NCBI GenBank assembly: GCA_945870455.1
Contig: CAMBSL010000013.1
Location: 1-46,060 of the forward strand
Source of the DNA: Pirellula staleyi DSM 6068
Lineage (GTDB): Bacteria > Planctomycetota > Planctomycetia > Pirellulales > Pirellulaceae
Direction of reading: 5' to 3'
Length of the DNA stretch: 46,060 nucleotides
Shown: positions 32,377 to 38,586 of the stretch, piece after piece
Layout of the letters: each line of letters starts with the position of its first letter
Position numbering within the stretch: the stretch's first letter is position 1
Made by a program: the position numbers and the translations under genes
Notes under the pieces: generated by a model
Database searches by the model: none
What the model was told of the DNA's origin: nothing
The model's input: the letters and a program-made list of their open reading frames with translations, nothing else

Positions 32377-32585
32377 AGCGCGACTTGGCTCAAACGAACC
32401 GCAGGAGTTTTCAACATGTGATTAGCATACTCTCGATTGCGTTTTTCTGCTCAATCATGAACTTGCGTTTCGGCGATTAATTGTGAATGCGACTGGAATG
32501 ACGTAGAATCGGGTTGGTTGGTTTATCCTCCCCGCAAAGAATCCCTTTCGCAGAAAACTCCTTTCTGCCTCGAAAGCATCCACCT

Positions 32586-34700
32586 ATGCAACGTTTGAGA
32601 TTCGCTTTCCTAGCCACCTTTTTATTGGCGAGCGTAAACGCCCGAGCAGATGGCCCCACCGATAATCAAATCGCATCCGTGCGACCCGTGCCACCTCCAG
32701 GCGTGATGATTACCTCCGACGAACGAAGCAAGCTAGAGACCGATCTCAAATCGCTCAACGAAGCAATCGCTAAGCTTCGAAACAACAAATCGCCACAGAT
32801 CCAAAAGTACTTGCCTGACGTGGAAGTCTTCGCGCGTGCTGTCGATCTAGCATTAAAAGAGGACGGATTCTTCGAAGCAAAAGATGCGAGCCGCGCCGTC
32901 GATGTTTTGAGCGAGGGATCACGTCGGGCCAAAGCCCTGGAAAAAGCCCAGGAAAAAGCACATTTGCCGGTCTATTGGCTCATGCAATCAGGTCCTGTCG
33001 TTCGCGGCTACCGTTCAAAACTGGACGGGACTGTTCAGCCTTATGGCGTCGTTTGGGACGGGCCAGTCATTAGCCCCGGAGAGCATCGCGCAGACATTTG
33101 GTGCCGCGGTCGAAGCGAAAAGGGGCTCGAACTGCAATTCATTGCAACTCGTATGACGAGCTCGGATCCCCTTCCAGCCAAAAATACGATCATGATTCAT
33201 CCCTTCGGTCGCTATTGCAACGCCAACAAACTAGCTGGCGAAGTCGACACGCTCGAGGTCCTCGAACACGCACTGCAAGACTACCCGATCGATCCCGAAC
33301 GAGTCGCCATTCGCGGTTTCTCGATGGGTGGAGCTGCTGCTTGGCATCTGGCTGTCCACTATCCAGACAAATGGTTCGCGGCTAATCCAGGAGCTGGCTT
33401 CTCGGAGACGCCACAATTTCTTAAGGTGTTTCAATCAGAAGATCTCAAGCCGACTTGGTATGAGCAAAAGCTTTGGCAAATGTACGACTGCCCAACATGG
33501 GCTCGCAATCTCAGAGTGTTGCCAACCATCGCGTACAGCGGCGAGATCGACAAACAAAAGCAAGCAGCCGATGTGATGGCGGAGGCGTGTTGGAATTTGC
33601 CGGAGGGTGAACGCTTTGAGCTGACGCACATCATTGCCCCAAGGACAGCCCACAAAATCGACCCAACGGCCCGCATCGAGATTGAAAAACGATTGGCAAC
33701 GCTCGATCGTATTCGAACAAATGACGCTCCAACCAAACTCTCGTTTACGACGACTACACTTAAATACAACCGATCGCATTGGATTACGGTCAATGCAATG
33801 GAAGAACATTGGAAACCAGCGATTGCAGTCGCGAGAAGTACACCCAACGCCATAGGCTCCATAGTGATCGCAGTCGAAAACATATCGGATGTGTCGATCG
33901 ATTTCGCAGCCGATCAAATGCTAGAGATCAATCAGGTGGCGATCGTTCCCTACCAAGAACTCCTTTTGGCAAAAGGGAATATAAGGATGGAATGGTTGTC
34001 CTCTCCCGAAGTTTTTCGAGCATCGGCACCCCGGAAATCAGACCGCTCCTGGGGCGTCCGTCTGCGAAATACGGGTAACAAGTGGGAGCAAGTCTCACCC
34101 ATCGAGCCCGCATCCACACAACTTGTCAAAAAGCACGGCCTTCAAGGCCCCATCGACGATGCCTTCATGGAGAGTTTTCTCTTCGTTAAGCCGTCCAAAG
34201 CTGGGCGTCATCCGGAAGTGGACAAGTGGGTTGAATCGGAATTCCAACACGCGGTGCGAGAATGGCATCGACAAATGCGAGGCGACGTGCGAATTAAATC
34301 CTCCGAGGATCTCAAACCGGAAGATATCGAAAACAACAATCTGATCCTTTGGGGCGATGCGCAAAGCAATCCAACGCTTGCAAAAATTGCGGACAAACTG
34401 CCAATCCAATGGGGCGGAGAGCAGATCGTCATTGGCGATCGCAAGTACGCTTCCGAAACACACTCACCCGTTTTGATATACCCAAATCCGCTCAATCCCG
34501 AACGGTATATTGTTCTCAACAGTGGCTTTACGTATCGTGAATACGACTACCTCAACAATGCACGCCAGGTTCCAAAGCTTCCCGATTGGGCTGTGGTGGA
34601 TATTACAACTCCCCCTGATTCTCGTTGGCCCGGCAAAATTGCGGACGCGGACTTCTTCGGTGAGAAGTGGGAGTTAAAGCCTGCCAGAACGATCAAGTAA
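32586..34700 (+). CDS. Secreted alpha/beta hydrolase (prolyl-oligopeptidase-like)
   Basis: 704 aa from ATG 32586, which opens a clear signal peptide (RLRFAFLATFLLASVNARA); the TTG at 32514 is rejected. An N-terminal helical domain is followed by an alpha/beta hydrolase core with the nucleophile elbow GFSMGG (Ser at about 246) after DPERVAIRG, and HPFGRYCNANK before it. The Asp and His of the triad are probably in SGEIDKQKQAAD and PRTAHKID. The C-terminal half (SHWITVNAMEEHW, NLILWGDAQSNPTLAKIADK, GFTYREYDYLNNARQVPKLP) is a beta-rich region common in exported planctomycete peptidase/esterase-like proteins. Substrate unknown. Confidence 0.86.
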   Translation: MQRLRFAFLATFLLASVNARADGPTDNQIASVRPVPPPGVMITSDERSKLETDLKSLNEAIAKLRNNKSPQIQKYLPDVEVFARAVDLALKEDGFFEAKDASRAVDVLSEGSRRAKALEKAQEKAHLPVYWLMQSGPVVRGYRSKLDGTVQPYGVVWDGPVISPGEHRADIWCRGRSEKGLELQFIATRMTSSDPLPAKNTIMIHPFGRYCNANKLAGEVDTLEVLEHALQDYPIDPERVAIRGFSMGGAAAWHLAVHYPDKWFAANPGAGFSETPQFLKVFQSEDLKPTWYEQKLWQMYDCPTWARNLRVLPTIAYSGEIDKQKQAADVMAEACWNLPEGERFELTHIIAPRTAHKIDPTARIEIEKRLATLDRIRTNDAPTKLSFTTTTLKYNRSHWITVNAMEEHWKPAIAVARSTPNAIGSIVIAVENISDVSIDFAADQMLEINQVAIVPYQELLLAKGNIRMEWLSSPEVFRASAPRKSDRSWGVRLRNTGNKWEQVSPIEPASTQLVKKHGLQGPIDDAFMESFLFVKPSKAGRHPEVDKWVESEFQHAVREWHRQMRGDVRIKSSEDLKPEDIENNNLILWGDAQSNPTLAKIADKLPIQWGGEQIVIGDRKYASETHSPVLIYPNPLNPERYIVLNSGFTYREYDYLNNARQVPKLPDWAVVDITTPPDSRWPGKIADADFFGEKWELKPARTIK

Positions 34701-34813: not shown

Positions 34814-36160
34814 ATGTCTCAATCGTCAATCAAACCCGTTGAGCCCATTGCAGAGTACCCTGTTCCTTGGGCGCATGTCTTACCGAGTCTGTTGGGGCAT
34901 ATTTCTTTCCGGGTTGAACACTCCTCCAACCGGATCCCTCCTCGATCATGGCTTGCCGTTGTCTCCTCGCACAATTCCCAGTTTGGGTTCACAAGTTCTG
35001 TTTGGCAATTGTCGTTGCAGTCGGCATTGCACCTAGCTCAACAGCAGGGTTGGGGAATCCTATGTGCAACGAATACGCCGTACTCCGAGTCAATCCTTCA
35101 CGCTTGCCGCCGGATGCATGTGCCATGGCTCGAAATCGAAATCGACGATCATGCTGGCCGAACGAAAATCAACCACGGACCCACAGAAAACCTCAACCAA
35201 TCTTGCTTTCAAGGCAGGATCGTTTTGGGTAGGGATCCGCAGGACGCGAGCCCAATTCCGCTGCAGGACCGAGCGGCCGTATTTCTGTCGGACCATCTGT
35301 TCGCGTTGAACGTGCGAGAGGGAGGTAAGATCGCGCAGCTCATCGAGACGCGGTTAGAAAAGGGTGAGTTCAAGGACGCGTCAACGTATGTTTCCTTAAG
35401 CTCGGTGAAGCCAAGAACATCGACAGCCAGTTGTCCCGACTGGCTGCAGCGCGGAGCGATTGGCTGGATTGCGATTGACCGAGCGGATGACCATCCGCAT
35501 ACGGAGGCAGCCGTTCAGTCGACTTGGCAGCCCATCCTGCCTTTGCGAAGTTTGATTGGTTCGAATCGCAAGTTCCTGATCCATTGCACACGCGCCAGAC
35601 GTGGCCCTTGGCCAGATCAATCTCTCGATCAATTTCATGACGAGTTGCTGCATTCCCCTTGGTTGCAATATCCTGAAGTTATCACATCGCTAAAGCGTAT
35701 CTTGTCGCAACAGCGACTTCTTGCGACTAGGAATTACCGTAGAGGAGATATCGAAACGGTTTGCTTCTCGGAAGTACCCATAGACCAATTGTTGGCGAGG
35801 CGGCGTTTTCAATCTCATTTGTCGAGATGGGATTGGGAGCCTTATGGCATCATGATCGATCAGGAGTGGTTGATGGAGTTTGGAGTCAAGCAGGTAAGTT
35901 ATGTCGATCGAGAGCAAGCGAAAAAGATGAGCGACGGAGAGTTGACTTATAGCCAAATCGTTTCGAATCGAACTAACTCGCAAGACTGGACCGCAGAAAA
36001 AGAATGGCGTCTGGCAGGGGACCTAAGACTCACCCATGTCCCTTTCTCGAAAGCTTTTGTCTTTGTGCCAAGCATGGCAGAAGCGGTTGCGATTCAGCAT
36101 TTATCGCGCTGGCCGATCGCGGTATGCGATCATTCTCACACGTTTTCGTCGCTATCTTAG
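34814..36160 (+). CDS. Uncharacterised two-part protein, N-terminal Rossmann-like (SLOG-like?)
   Basis: 448 aa, no signal or membrane segment. The N-terminal half (residues about 40-200) alternates strands and helices: SWLAVVSSHNSQFG, LAQQQGWGILCATNTPYSES, ACRRMHVPWLEIEID, RAAVFLSDHLFALNVREGG, which recalls the SLOG/DprA-type nucleotide-binding fold. The C-terminal half has a distinct set of conserved-looking positions: FLIHCTRARRGPWPDQS, CFSEVPIDQLL, WEPYGIMIDQEWL, QVSYVDREQ, DWTAEKEWRLAGDLRL. The latter block (FSEVP ... YGI ... EWR) is seen in proteins of unknown function that I associate loosely with stress or defence. No named family is certain. It lies 113 bp after the hydrolase gene, with hairpins between. 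Confidence 0.7.
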   Translation: MSQSSIKPVEPIAEYPVPWAHVLPSLLGHISFRVEHSSNRIPPRSWLAVVSSHNSQFGFTSSVWQLSLQSALHLAQQQGWGILCATNTPYSESILHACRRMHVPWLEIEIDDHAGRTKINHGPTENLNQSCFQGRIVLGRDPQDASPIPLQDRAAVFLSDHLFALNVREGGKIAQLIETRLEKGEFKDASTYVSLSSVKPRTSTASCPDWLQRGAIGWIAIDRADDHPHTEAAVQSTWQPILPLRSLIGSNRKFLIHCTRARRGPWPDQSLDQFHDELLHSPWLQYPEVITSLKRILSQQRLLATRNYRRGDIETVCFSEVPIDQLLARRRFQSHLSRWDWEPYGIMIDQEWLMEFGVKQVSYVDREQAKKMSDGELTYSQIVSNRTNSQDWTAEKEWRLAGDLRLTHVPFSKAFVFVPSMAEAVAIQHLSRWPIAVCDHSHTFSSLS

Positions 36161-36501: not shown

Positions 36502-38397
36502 CTATTCTACTGTAACGCTCTTGGCTAAATTTCGCGGCTTATCCACATTGCAACCGCGTAAGACCGCAATATGATAAGCTAAAAGTTGGAGTGGAATCGA
36601 CGCCACAATAGGTTGCAGAAAATCCTCGACGTACGGGATTTCAATAAAGTCATCGACAAGACCAGCTAACTTGTCATCGATTTGGTCGACGATTGCAATG
36701 ACCGGGCCTCGGCGTGCCTTGACCTCTTGGAGATTGCTCATGACTTTGTCGTAAACGTGTGATCGAGACAGGATGAAGACCGACGGGGTATGTTCGTCGA
36801 CCAAGGCGATTGGTCCGTGCTTCATTTCAGCAGAAGGATAGCCTTCGGCATGGATATAGCTGATTTCCTTTAGCTTCAACGCACCTTCAAGTGCTGTCGG
36901 GAAGTTGTAATGACGACCGAGATAAAGAAAATTGGTCGCGTCCTTGTATTTTTCTGCGATGGAACGGACTGCGGCATCGCAACCGAGTGCATGTTCGACG
37001 ACGGTGGGCAGATTTTCAAGTTGATCAATGATATGAAGGCCAGCTTCAAAGCTCAGGTGCCGCAGGCGGCCAAAGTACAATCCCAGCATCGTCAAAACGC
37101 ACAGTTGCGATGTGAAGGCTTTTGTCGACGCGACCCCGACTTCAGGGCCTGCGTGCAAGTAGATTCCACCATCTGCTTCCTGTGCAATACTGCTCCCAAC
37201 GACGTTGCAAACGGCGAGTGTATGGTGTCCTTTTCGCTTCATCTCGCGAAGGGCCGCTAATGTATCTGCCGTTTCCCCGCTTTGAGTTATTCCGAAGATT
37301 AACGTGTCATGCTCAACGGGTGGATTGCGGTATCGCAACTCGCTTGCGTATTCGACTTCGACCGGCATACGAGCGAACTCCTCAATCAAGTACTCACCCA
37401 CCAAGGACGAGTGCCACGAGGTTCCGCAAGCGGTCAAAATGAGGCGATTCACGCCCCTCAGTTGTGCGGGAGTCAGGTTCAAGCCACCGAACTTAGCTGT
37501 CGCGTTCTCGCGATCCAGTCGACCTCGCATGGCATTGCGAAGTGAAGTTGGTTGCTCGTGAATCTCCTTGAGCATGTAGTGTGCATAACCTTCGCGTGAG
37601 ACCTCTTCGCCGCGATCTTCTAACATGCGAACGTCCGGTCGTATTCGGCCTTGATCGCGATGCGTGACTTGGATTGCATCCTTTGTTACGACGGCGATTT
37701 GATGGTCGGCAAGATAGATGATGCGTTCTGTATGTCCGACGAGTGGTGAAGTGTCGCTTGCTACGAATTGTTCGCCACGTCCGACACCAAGCACCAGCGG
37801 GCTACCGAAACGTGCTGCCACAAGCAGGTCGGGCCGGTCGCGAAACATCACCACGAGCCCGTAAGTGCCTCGCAACAATGGCAGTGCCGCTCGAACGGCT
37901 TCCACAAAGACCGCATTCGGTCCTCCAGTCCCCAAATTCGACTGTTCATCCCTGCTGGCGGGCGAATCGAGAAGCACTTTCAGGTTGTCGGCAACCAGAT
38001 GGGCAATAACTTCTGTATCGGTTGCCGACTGAAAGATGTATCCCTTTTCAATGAGAGCCTGTTTGAGCACTTGATAGTTTTCGATAACGCCGTTGTGAAC
38101 GACAGCAACCAAACCGCGACCTCCTAAATGAGGGTGTGCATTCTCGGTTGTGGCAGGACCATGCGTTGCCCATCGGGTATGACCAATTCCCGTAAAGCCA
38201 TTCATTGGATTTTTGGCAATTTGGTCTTCCAAGTTATCGACATGACCGACAGATCGATTTAGTTGAAATGCGCTGCCTGATGTTCCCAACGTTGCAATTC
38301 CTGCGCTGTCGTAACCTCGGTATTCAAGCCGCCGAAGTCCCGCTACAAGAAAGGGCGTCGCTTCTTTTTTACCAACATAGCCTACAATTCCGCACAT
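36502..38397 (-). CDS. glmS: Glutamine--fructose-6-phosphate aminotransferase (isomerizing)
   Basis: 631 aa. I use ATG 38397 so that the catalytic Cys is residue 2 (MCGIVGYVG); the track frame begins 23 codons earlier. An N-terminal class II glutamine amidotransferase domain (RRLEYRGYDSAGIA, GIGHTRWATHG, NGVIENY) is followed by two SIS sugar-isomerase domains (ACGTSWHSSLVGEYLIEE, GITQSGETADTLAALRE, GRHYNFPTALEGALKLKEIS, AEGYPSAEMKHGPIAL), with the C-terminal KPRNLAKSVTVE. It makes glucosamine-6-phosphate for UDP-GlcNAc synthesis. No glmS ribozyme-like structure was recognised upstream (38398..38586). A small coiled-coil gene follows. Confidence 0.97.
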   Translation of the reverse strand: MCGIVGYVGKKEATPFLVAGLRRLEYRGYDSAGIATLGTSGSAFQLNRSVGHVDNLEDQIAKNPMNGFTGIGHTRWATHGPATTENAHPHLGGRGLVAVVHNGVIENYQVLKQALIEKGYIFQSATDTEVIAHLVADNLKVLLDSPASRDEQSNLGTGGPNAVFVEAVRAALPLLRGTYGLVVMFRDRPDLLVAARFGSPLVLGVGRGEQFVASDTSPLVGHTERIIYLADHQIAVVTKDAIQVTHRDQGRIRPDVRMLEDRGEEVSREGYAHYMLKEIHEQPTSLRNAMRGRLDRENATAKFGGLNLTPAQLRGVNRLILTACGTSWHSSLVGEYLIEEFARMPVEVEYASELRYRNPPVEHDTLIFGITQSGETADTLAALREMKRKGHHTLAVCNVVGSSIAQEADGGIYLHAGPEVGVASTKAFTSQLCVLTMLGLYFGRLRHLSFEAGLHIIDQLENLPTVVEHALGCDAAVRSIAEKYKDATNFLYLGRHYNFPTALEGALKLKEISYIHAEGYPSAEMKHGPIALVDEHTPSVFILSRSHVYDKVMSNLQEVKARRGPVIAIVDQIDDKLAGLVDDFIEIPYVEDFLQPIVASIPLQLLAYHIAVLRGCNVDKPRNLAKSVTVE

Positions 38398-38586
38398 TTC
38401 ATTGCCCTGTTCGTTGCCCTGATAAGGACGTTCAAACTCTAGATGGATTGAAAAAGTGTACGCCATAAATTAATTCGCTGGCGGACCTGAATGCATGCTG
38501 CGCATTCTATACCATTGCCACATCCTATTCAGTCCATTTTATCGTTAAGATTGTTAAGAAACGTGGACCGCGTTACCAACAATGCC

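Follow-up and report, generated by a model that had tools for sequence, protein, structure and literature searches.

Gene and genomic context

An intact open reading frame with an ATG start occupies positions 34814-36160 on the forward strand of the window (the whole stretch of DNA that was analysed, 46,060 nucleotides) and encodes a protein of 448 amino acids. The reverse strand across the same interval contains many stop codons. Homologues in two sister genomes share 95% and 91% identity with this protein, and NG86 estimates of dN/dS were about 0.19 in both sister pairs (0.0245/0.127 and 0.046/0.246). Purifying selection, together with the existence of the sister homologues, indicates that the reading frame is a real gene.

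The upstream neighbour in the window is an esterase/peptidase-like gene (32514-34700, forward strand), and the neighbours on the opposite strand are a 71-aa ORF and glmS. The order of neighbouring genes is lost beyond the nearest species.

The glmS-type gene (654 aa, 36502-38466, reverse strand), along with the 71-aa ORF, separates the studied gene from the next conserved gene. The two sister genomes closest to that of the window (L031, L041) have a corresponding stretch that is approximately 2 kb shorter and lacks the glmS-type gene, and elsewhere in these genomes only a very weak match to the glmS-type protein was found. This pattern suggests an insertion or a replacement specific to the lineage.

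Distribution and inheritance

Homologues were detected in 192 of 241 Pirellulaceae genomes (126 of the 159 of good quality), nearly always as one copy per genome. Outside this family, some genomes of a second family in the class (f22) had the gene, as did isolated members of other parts of the class and a few other families of the phylum, chiefly f71. No full-length match was obtained in genera g41 and g42, which seem to do without the complete gene. Named genomes were also scanned, using short exact patterns only, and no fused relative was found in a named organism outside Planctomycetota; given the patterns used, wider occurrence is possible.

In a tree of the C-terminal domain, the 24 sequences from the window's genus formed one clade (support 99/95), and g7, g50, g73 and g38 were each recovered as a clade; f22 did not come out as a single clade and g85 was without resolution. 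This single-copy, near-universal and clade-recovering distribution argues for mostly vertical inheritance with losses and not for mobile cargo. The gene is near-core in Pirellulaceae, mostly vertically inherited, and atypical as defence cargo.

Domain architecture

A sequence-only reading of this locus had proposed an uncharacterised protein with two distinct domains, a nucleotide-binding fold at residues 1-210 and a second domain at residues 230-448, and had named a profile match to a housekeeping family as the finding that would count against it. No such match was found in Pfam or NCBIfam, where the protein had zero matches even at E 10, and sequence searches of the PDB with the single protein and with profiles gave no meaningful match. 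AlphaFold2 modelling of the whole protein, using a 30-sequence alignment, yielded two confident domains (mean pLDDT 86.6, pTM 0.82) with a low-confidence stretch between them at residues ~201-230. The two-domain architecture is solid, with slightly shifted boundaries: the N-terminal domain spans residues ~12-225 and the C-terminal domain residues ~245-440. The three motifs singled out earlier in the C-terminal half (CFSEVP, YGI and DWTAEKEWR) are present and conserved. The features of the gene are as follows.

34814-36160, forward strand: whole gene, predicted SLOG-type domain fused to an AbiGi-like domain (ORF, translation, purifying selection, presence across the family)
34847-35488, forward strand: predicted N-terminal SLOG/DprA-like Rossmann domain, residues ~12-225 (AlphaFold2; Foldseek to DprA, ShosA, LOG and Moco carrier)
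34961-34975, forward strand: VSSHN, residues 50-54, S52 invariant in 27/27 (conservation)
35318-35332, forward strand: EGGKI, residues 169-173, G171 in 28/29, candidate phosphate-binding loop (conservation)
35546-36133, forward strand: C-terminal AbiGi/DUF2971-like domain, residues ~245-440 (AlphaFold2 of the domain alone; PADLOC AbiGi; hhalign)
35576-35593, forward strand: LIHCTR, residues 255-260, H257 in 80/80 and T259 in 78/80 (80-sequence conservation)
35762-35779, forward strand: CFSEVP, residues 317-322, C/S317 and F/L318 conserved (sequence, conservation)
35843-35851, forward strand: YGI, residues 344-346, G345 in 80/80 (conservation)
35900-35902, forward strand: tyrosine Y363, 80/80 (conservation)
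35984-36010, forward strand: DWTAEKEWR, residues 391-399, E395, E397 and R399 each in 80/80 (conservation)

The N-terminal domain has a SLOG-type Rossmann fold

When the modelled N-terminal domain was compared with the PDB by Foldseek, the top match was DprA (3uqz; E 1.2e-4, prob 1.0), followed by ShosA (8zva), more DprA chains, the Moco carrier 2iz5, and LOG (5zbl, 5its); 5zbl and 2iz5 also matched with prob 1.0. As all of these fold matches are SLOG-superfamily proteins, the earlier guess of a Rossmann/SLOG-type fold was borne out by the AlphaFold2 model and the Foldseek results, and the N-terminal half is, on its predicted structure, a SLOG-type Rossmann domain. It has the same fold as the DprA/ShosA/LOG/Moco-carrier branch of the superfamily. 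The protein differs from that branch in lacking the LOG motif PGGxGTxxE, in having no significant profile match to DprA, and in the attachment of an AbiGi-like domain.

Comparison of an N-domain profile with 16 planctomycete DprA sequences by hhalign was not significant (P 0.039). In this weak, non-significant alignment, EGGKI pairs with the DprA segment SGaLiTA, and DRA..FLSD..GGKI..GA lies opposite RNR..LS..SGaLiTA..GA, the register expected from the fold. VSSHN probably occupies the position of the DprA VG(S/T)R loop.

Two specific identities were considered and rejected. The protein is not the genome's own DprA, as PF02481 gave no match on it and the canonical DprA is encoded at G000:C5:43745-44365. 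It is also not a LOG (cytokinin-type phosphoribohydrolase), as EGGKIAQLIE is found where the PGGxGTxxE motif would be.

The C-terminal domain is related to AbiGi and DUF2971

AlphaFold2 modelling of the C-terminal domain alone was confident (pLDDT 89.2, pTM 0.84). The PADLOC AbiGi model matched the window protein with an E value of 0.0016 and its C-terminal domain alone with 2.1e-4, and it matched 30 of 58 homologous C-terminal domains, the best at 2.2e-6. The curated AbiGi cut-offs (PF10899, NF042957) were not reached by the window protein.

The C-terminal domain was also compared by hhalign with 11 stand-alone proteins from plasmids and planctomycetes, which gave a probability of 99.9% (E 1.6e-32 for a single comparison). 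Because some of these 11 relatives had been found with the query profile itself, the comparison with members named by NCBI carries particular weight. Probability was 98.8% against only the two proteins, from Sphingobium and Rhodococcus, whose NCBI name is 'abortive infection system antitoxin AbiGi family protein', and 97.3% against the one NCBI-named DUF2971 protein, from Paenibacillus. Controls in which the query was column-shuffled or reversed scored 0.1-0.3%. Judged by these profile comparisons, the C-terminal half is clearly, if distantly, homologous to the AbiGi/DUF2971-type domain.

The conserved blocks HxT, CF, G, PVxY and W..E.EWR follow one another in the same order in the C-terminal domain, in the AbiGi family (PF10899; NF042957; PADLOC PDLC02331) and in the DUF2971-type proteins that stand alone in prophages and plasmids. 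The window protein differs from AbiGi in its N-terminal SLOG domain and its scores below the curated thresholds, and its family has segments of its own (GPWPDQS, RWDWEPYG) and mostly vertical inheritance. No AbiGii partner was seen, judging by the identities of the adjacent genes (the esterase/peptidase-like gene, the 71-aa ORF and glmS). PHROGs returned only a weak match, phrog_13416, of unknown function. The fusion of a SLOG domain to an AbiGi-like domain appears to be undescribed in the literature and databases searched.

Invariant residues suggest an active site

Residue conservation was assessed across 80 sequences, of which 58 were fused and 22 stand-alone. H257, G345, Y363, E395, E397 and R399 were invariant throughout, and T259, I296 and W392 were nearly so. 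In the alignment of 30 homologues, G345, W392, E395, E397 and R399 were invariant. Invariance that extends over both fused and stand-alone sequences is the pattern expected of an active site or a tight ligand site, and on sequence grounds these residues point to an active site. The C-terminal block had previously been described as having the look of an active site, with no family assigned; the invariance supports that impression, and the block can now be placed with the AbiGi/DUF2971-type.

These residues bear on an alternative in which the protein is a DprA-like nucleic-acid-binding protein and its C-terminal domain has a structural or protein-binding role, not a catalytic one. In its favour, the N-terminal domain has DprA as its top match in the PDB. 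However, a separate canonical DprA gene is present in 17 of the 18 genomes checked, including that of the window, and the invariant charged and polar residues of the C-terminal domain look catalytic or ligand-binding in fused and stand-alone proteins alike. We regard this alternative as quite improbable.

Relationship to ADP-ribosyltransferases

We compared the C-terminal domain alone with the PDB by structure and found no match at E <= 0.001. ADP-ribosyltransferases recurred among its individually insignificant matches (exotoxin A three times, Arr twice, PARP1 and KptA), and the highest listed TM-scores, which are low, were to KptA (0.26) and exotoxin A (0.25). In a library of viral structures, the best match was the unnamed A0A7S5UVD0 (prob 0.96), followed by phage G gp532 (prob 0.54) and gp336 (prob 0.57). 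Near their N termini, gp532 and gp336 each have the HGTS motif that typifies the PARP-like superfamily, and gp336 matched a PARP profile weakly (E 0.021).

The C-domain profile found nothing in KptA or DarT by hhalign (probability ~0.1%). The residues compared with the catalytic triad of the superfamily, H257, Y363 and E395/E397, are all invariant, but H257 and Y363 are 106 residues apart, a spacing unlike that of PARP-type enzymes. The structural hints of a fold resembling ADP-ribosyltransferases (PARP, exotoxin A, Arr, KptA, DarT) are weak, and they stand against the lack of a significant structural or profile match and against a residue spacing that departs from the canonical one. An ADP-ribosyltransferase-like fold of the C-terminal domain is possible on the modelled structure. 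Literature searches on AbiGi with ADP-ribosyltransferase, or on DUF2971 with abortive infection, found nothing relevant in the papers covered.

The two Bacillus phage G genes, gp336 (L097:20995-21468) and gp532 (L098:17422-17886), are unannotated and have the look of a small PARP-like ADP-ribosyltransferase fold.

Linkage to nadA

In at least 19 of 73 Pirellulaceae genomes, belonging to six genera, the next gene downstream, in the same orientation, is nadA, which encodes quinolinate synthase; the 73 are the family genomes in which both genes were located, in a sample that was chosen and not random. The gap between the matches to the gene and to nadA is less than 500 bases. In nine such loci of ~6-13 kb, nadA was the sole neighbour common to all six genera, and two other genes were each common to two genera. 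Neither the window's genome nor the distant f22 family has the adjacency, and nadA was not found in some genomes that carry the gene (G141, G150, G143, G152). The linkage may go back to a single ancestral gene order that a clade has retained.

Among the neighbours, no fixed or defence-gene partner recurred apart from nadA in its six genera. Genes of the moaA-type radical-SAM and MoxR/DUF58 kinds were repeat neighbours within the window's genus only. One subgroup of that genus (L046, L047, L050, L051) has it next to genes of the MoxR-type ATPase and DUF58/vWA kinds.

The linkage could reflect a direct role in NAD metabolism, unconnected with conflict; the protein might, for example, regulate quinolinate or NAD synthesis or assist it as an accessory enzyme. 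Retention of nadA downstream in six genera, while other neighbours were scrambled, speaks for such a role. Yet most genera, that of the window included, lack the adjacency, nadA went undetected in some gene-bearing genomes, and a single ancestral event retained in a clade could account for the adjacency. A purely metabolic role of this kind seems unlikely to us.

A proposed NAD-linked regulator or effector

The Thoeris protein ThsA (SIR2-SLOG) uses its SLOG domain as a sensor of cyclic ADP-ribose isomers that switches an NADase (PMC7272460, PMC11204291). According to a survey of NAD/ADP-ribose systems, many SLOG domains are predicted to have ligands related to NAD (PMC9503650). The window protein shares with ThsA the design of a SLOG domain joined in one chain to a second domain that probably acts on a ligand or on NAD. 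It differs in having the opposite domain order and an AbiGi-like second domain; no SIR2 match was found on it with Pfam, and no ThsB-like partner recurred among the neighbours.

The ThsA-like design, the linkage to nadA and the weak hints of an ADP-ribosyltransferase lead us to favour, tentatively, a chromosomal regulator or effector that is core to Pirellulaceae, gated by a ligand and linked to NAD, a reading that we hold to be plausible but short of probable. The N-terminal SLOG domain would bind a nucleotide-type ligand, preferably, we would guess, one derived from NAD or ADP-ribose, and binding would control the C-terminal AbiGi-like domain. The likely active site would comprise H257-x-T259, G345, Y363 and E395-x-E397-x-R399, and might act on NAD+ or a nucleotide in the manner of an ADP-ribosyltransferase, which is again a guess. 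The logic would be that of ThsA, a SLOG sensor coupled to an NAD-acting domain, with a different effector. A broader proposal is that the protein is a SLOG-gated enzyme of a new class that consumes NAD or ADP-ribosylates, its AbiGi/DUF2971-type domain being an ADP-ribosyltransferase-like enzyme not recognised before. The domain would then serve planctomycetes in a core NAD-linked checkpoint, and prophages and plasmids as a stand-alone effector. This broader proposal strikes us as doubtful.

The name AbiGi dates back decades, to its description as a phage-resistance protein. The sequence-only reading had thought a role in stress or phage response conceivable. The gene could encode an effector of anti-phage abortive infection that has become fixed across the family, whose SLOG domain would sense infection or nucleic-acid damage and whose AbiGi-like domain would arrest the cell. 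The AbiGi homology of the C-terminal domain leans that way, as do the DprA-like ShosA among the N-domain fold matches and the occurrence of stand-alone relatives in prophage-like contigs and plasmids. Examples of the latter are an AbiGi-like gene on the Vibrio plasmid pVEu (L102), a few genes from an annotated anti-phage Hhe, and another on the Sphingobium plasmid pEP2 (L099), beside an AAA ATPase and helicase pair. Against this role, the gene is near-universal, single-copy and mostly vertical, without a recurring defence-gene partner, and we know of no biochemical activity for AbiGi itself. In addition, a published screen in E. coli found no toxicity for either AbiGi or AbiGii (PMC3985639).

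We consider a fixed anti-phage effector rather unlikely. Given its distribution, the gene is less likely to be mobile defence in the classical sense. The stress or phage role suggested earlier would draw on the AbiGi homology, which leans towards it; the single-copy vertical distribution, the lack of a defence partner and the nadA linkage argue against ordinary mobile defence cargo.

An AbiGi version that is wired to a SLOG domain, keeps a small set of residues invariant and, in part of its range, is linked to NAD synthesis offers a concrete hypothesis on the function of the AbiGi/DUF2971-type superfamily and on the residues involved. The distribution also indicates that an AbiGi-like domain can settle as a near-core gene of one bacterial family and need not be only mobile cargo.

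Other AbiGi-like proteins were noted in the course of the searches. Stand-alone versions, ~200 aa long, occur commonly in viral contigs that resemble prophages. One widespread family of this length, related to AbiGi/DUF2971 and essentially unnamed in PHROGs, has the pattern THLTK...AVCFQ..PL...PVIYE...DWTHEREWR and was found in the prophage-like contigs L156-L176 as a single gene, in some cases near terminase- or HNH-like genes. A further protein (L087:4329-5222, genome G281) combines an AbiGi-like domain with an N-terminal zinc-ribbon-like region in place of the SLOG domain.
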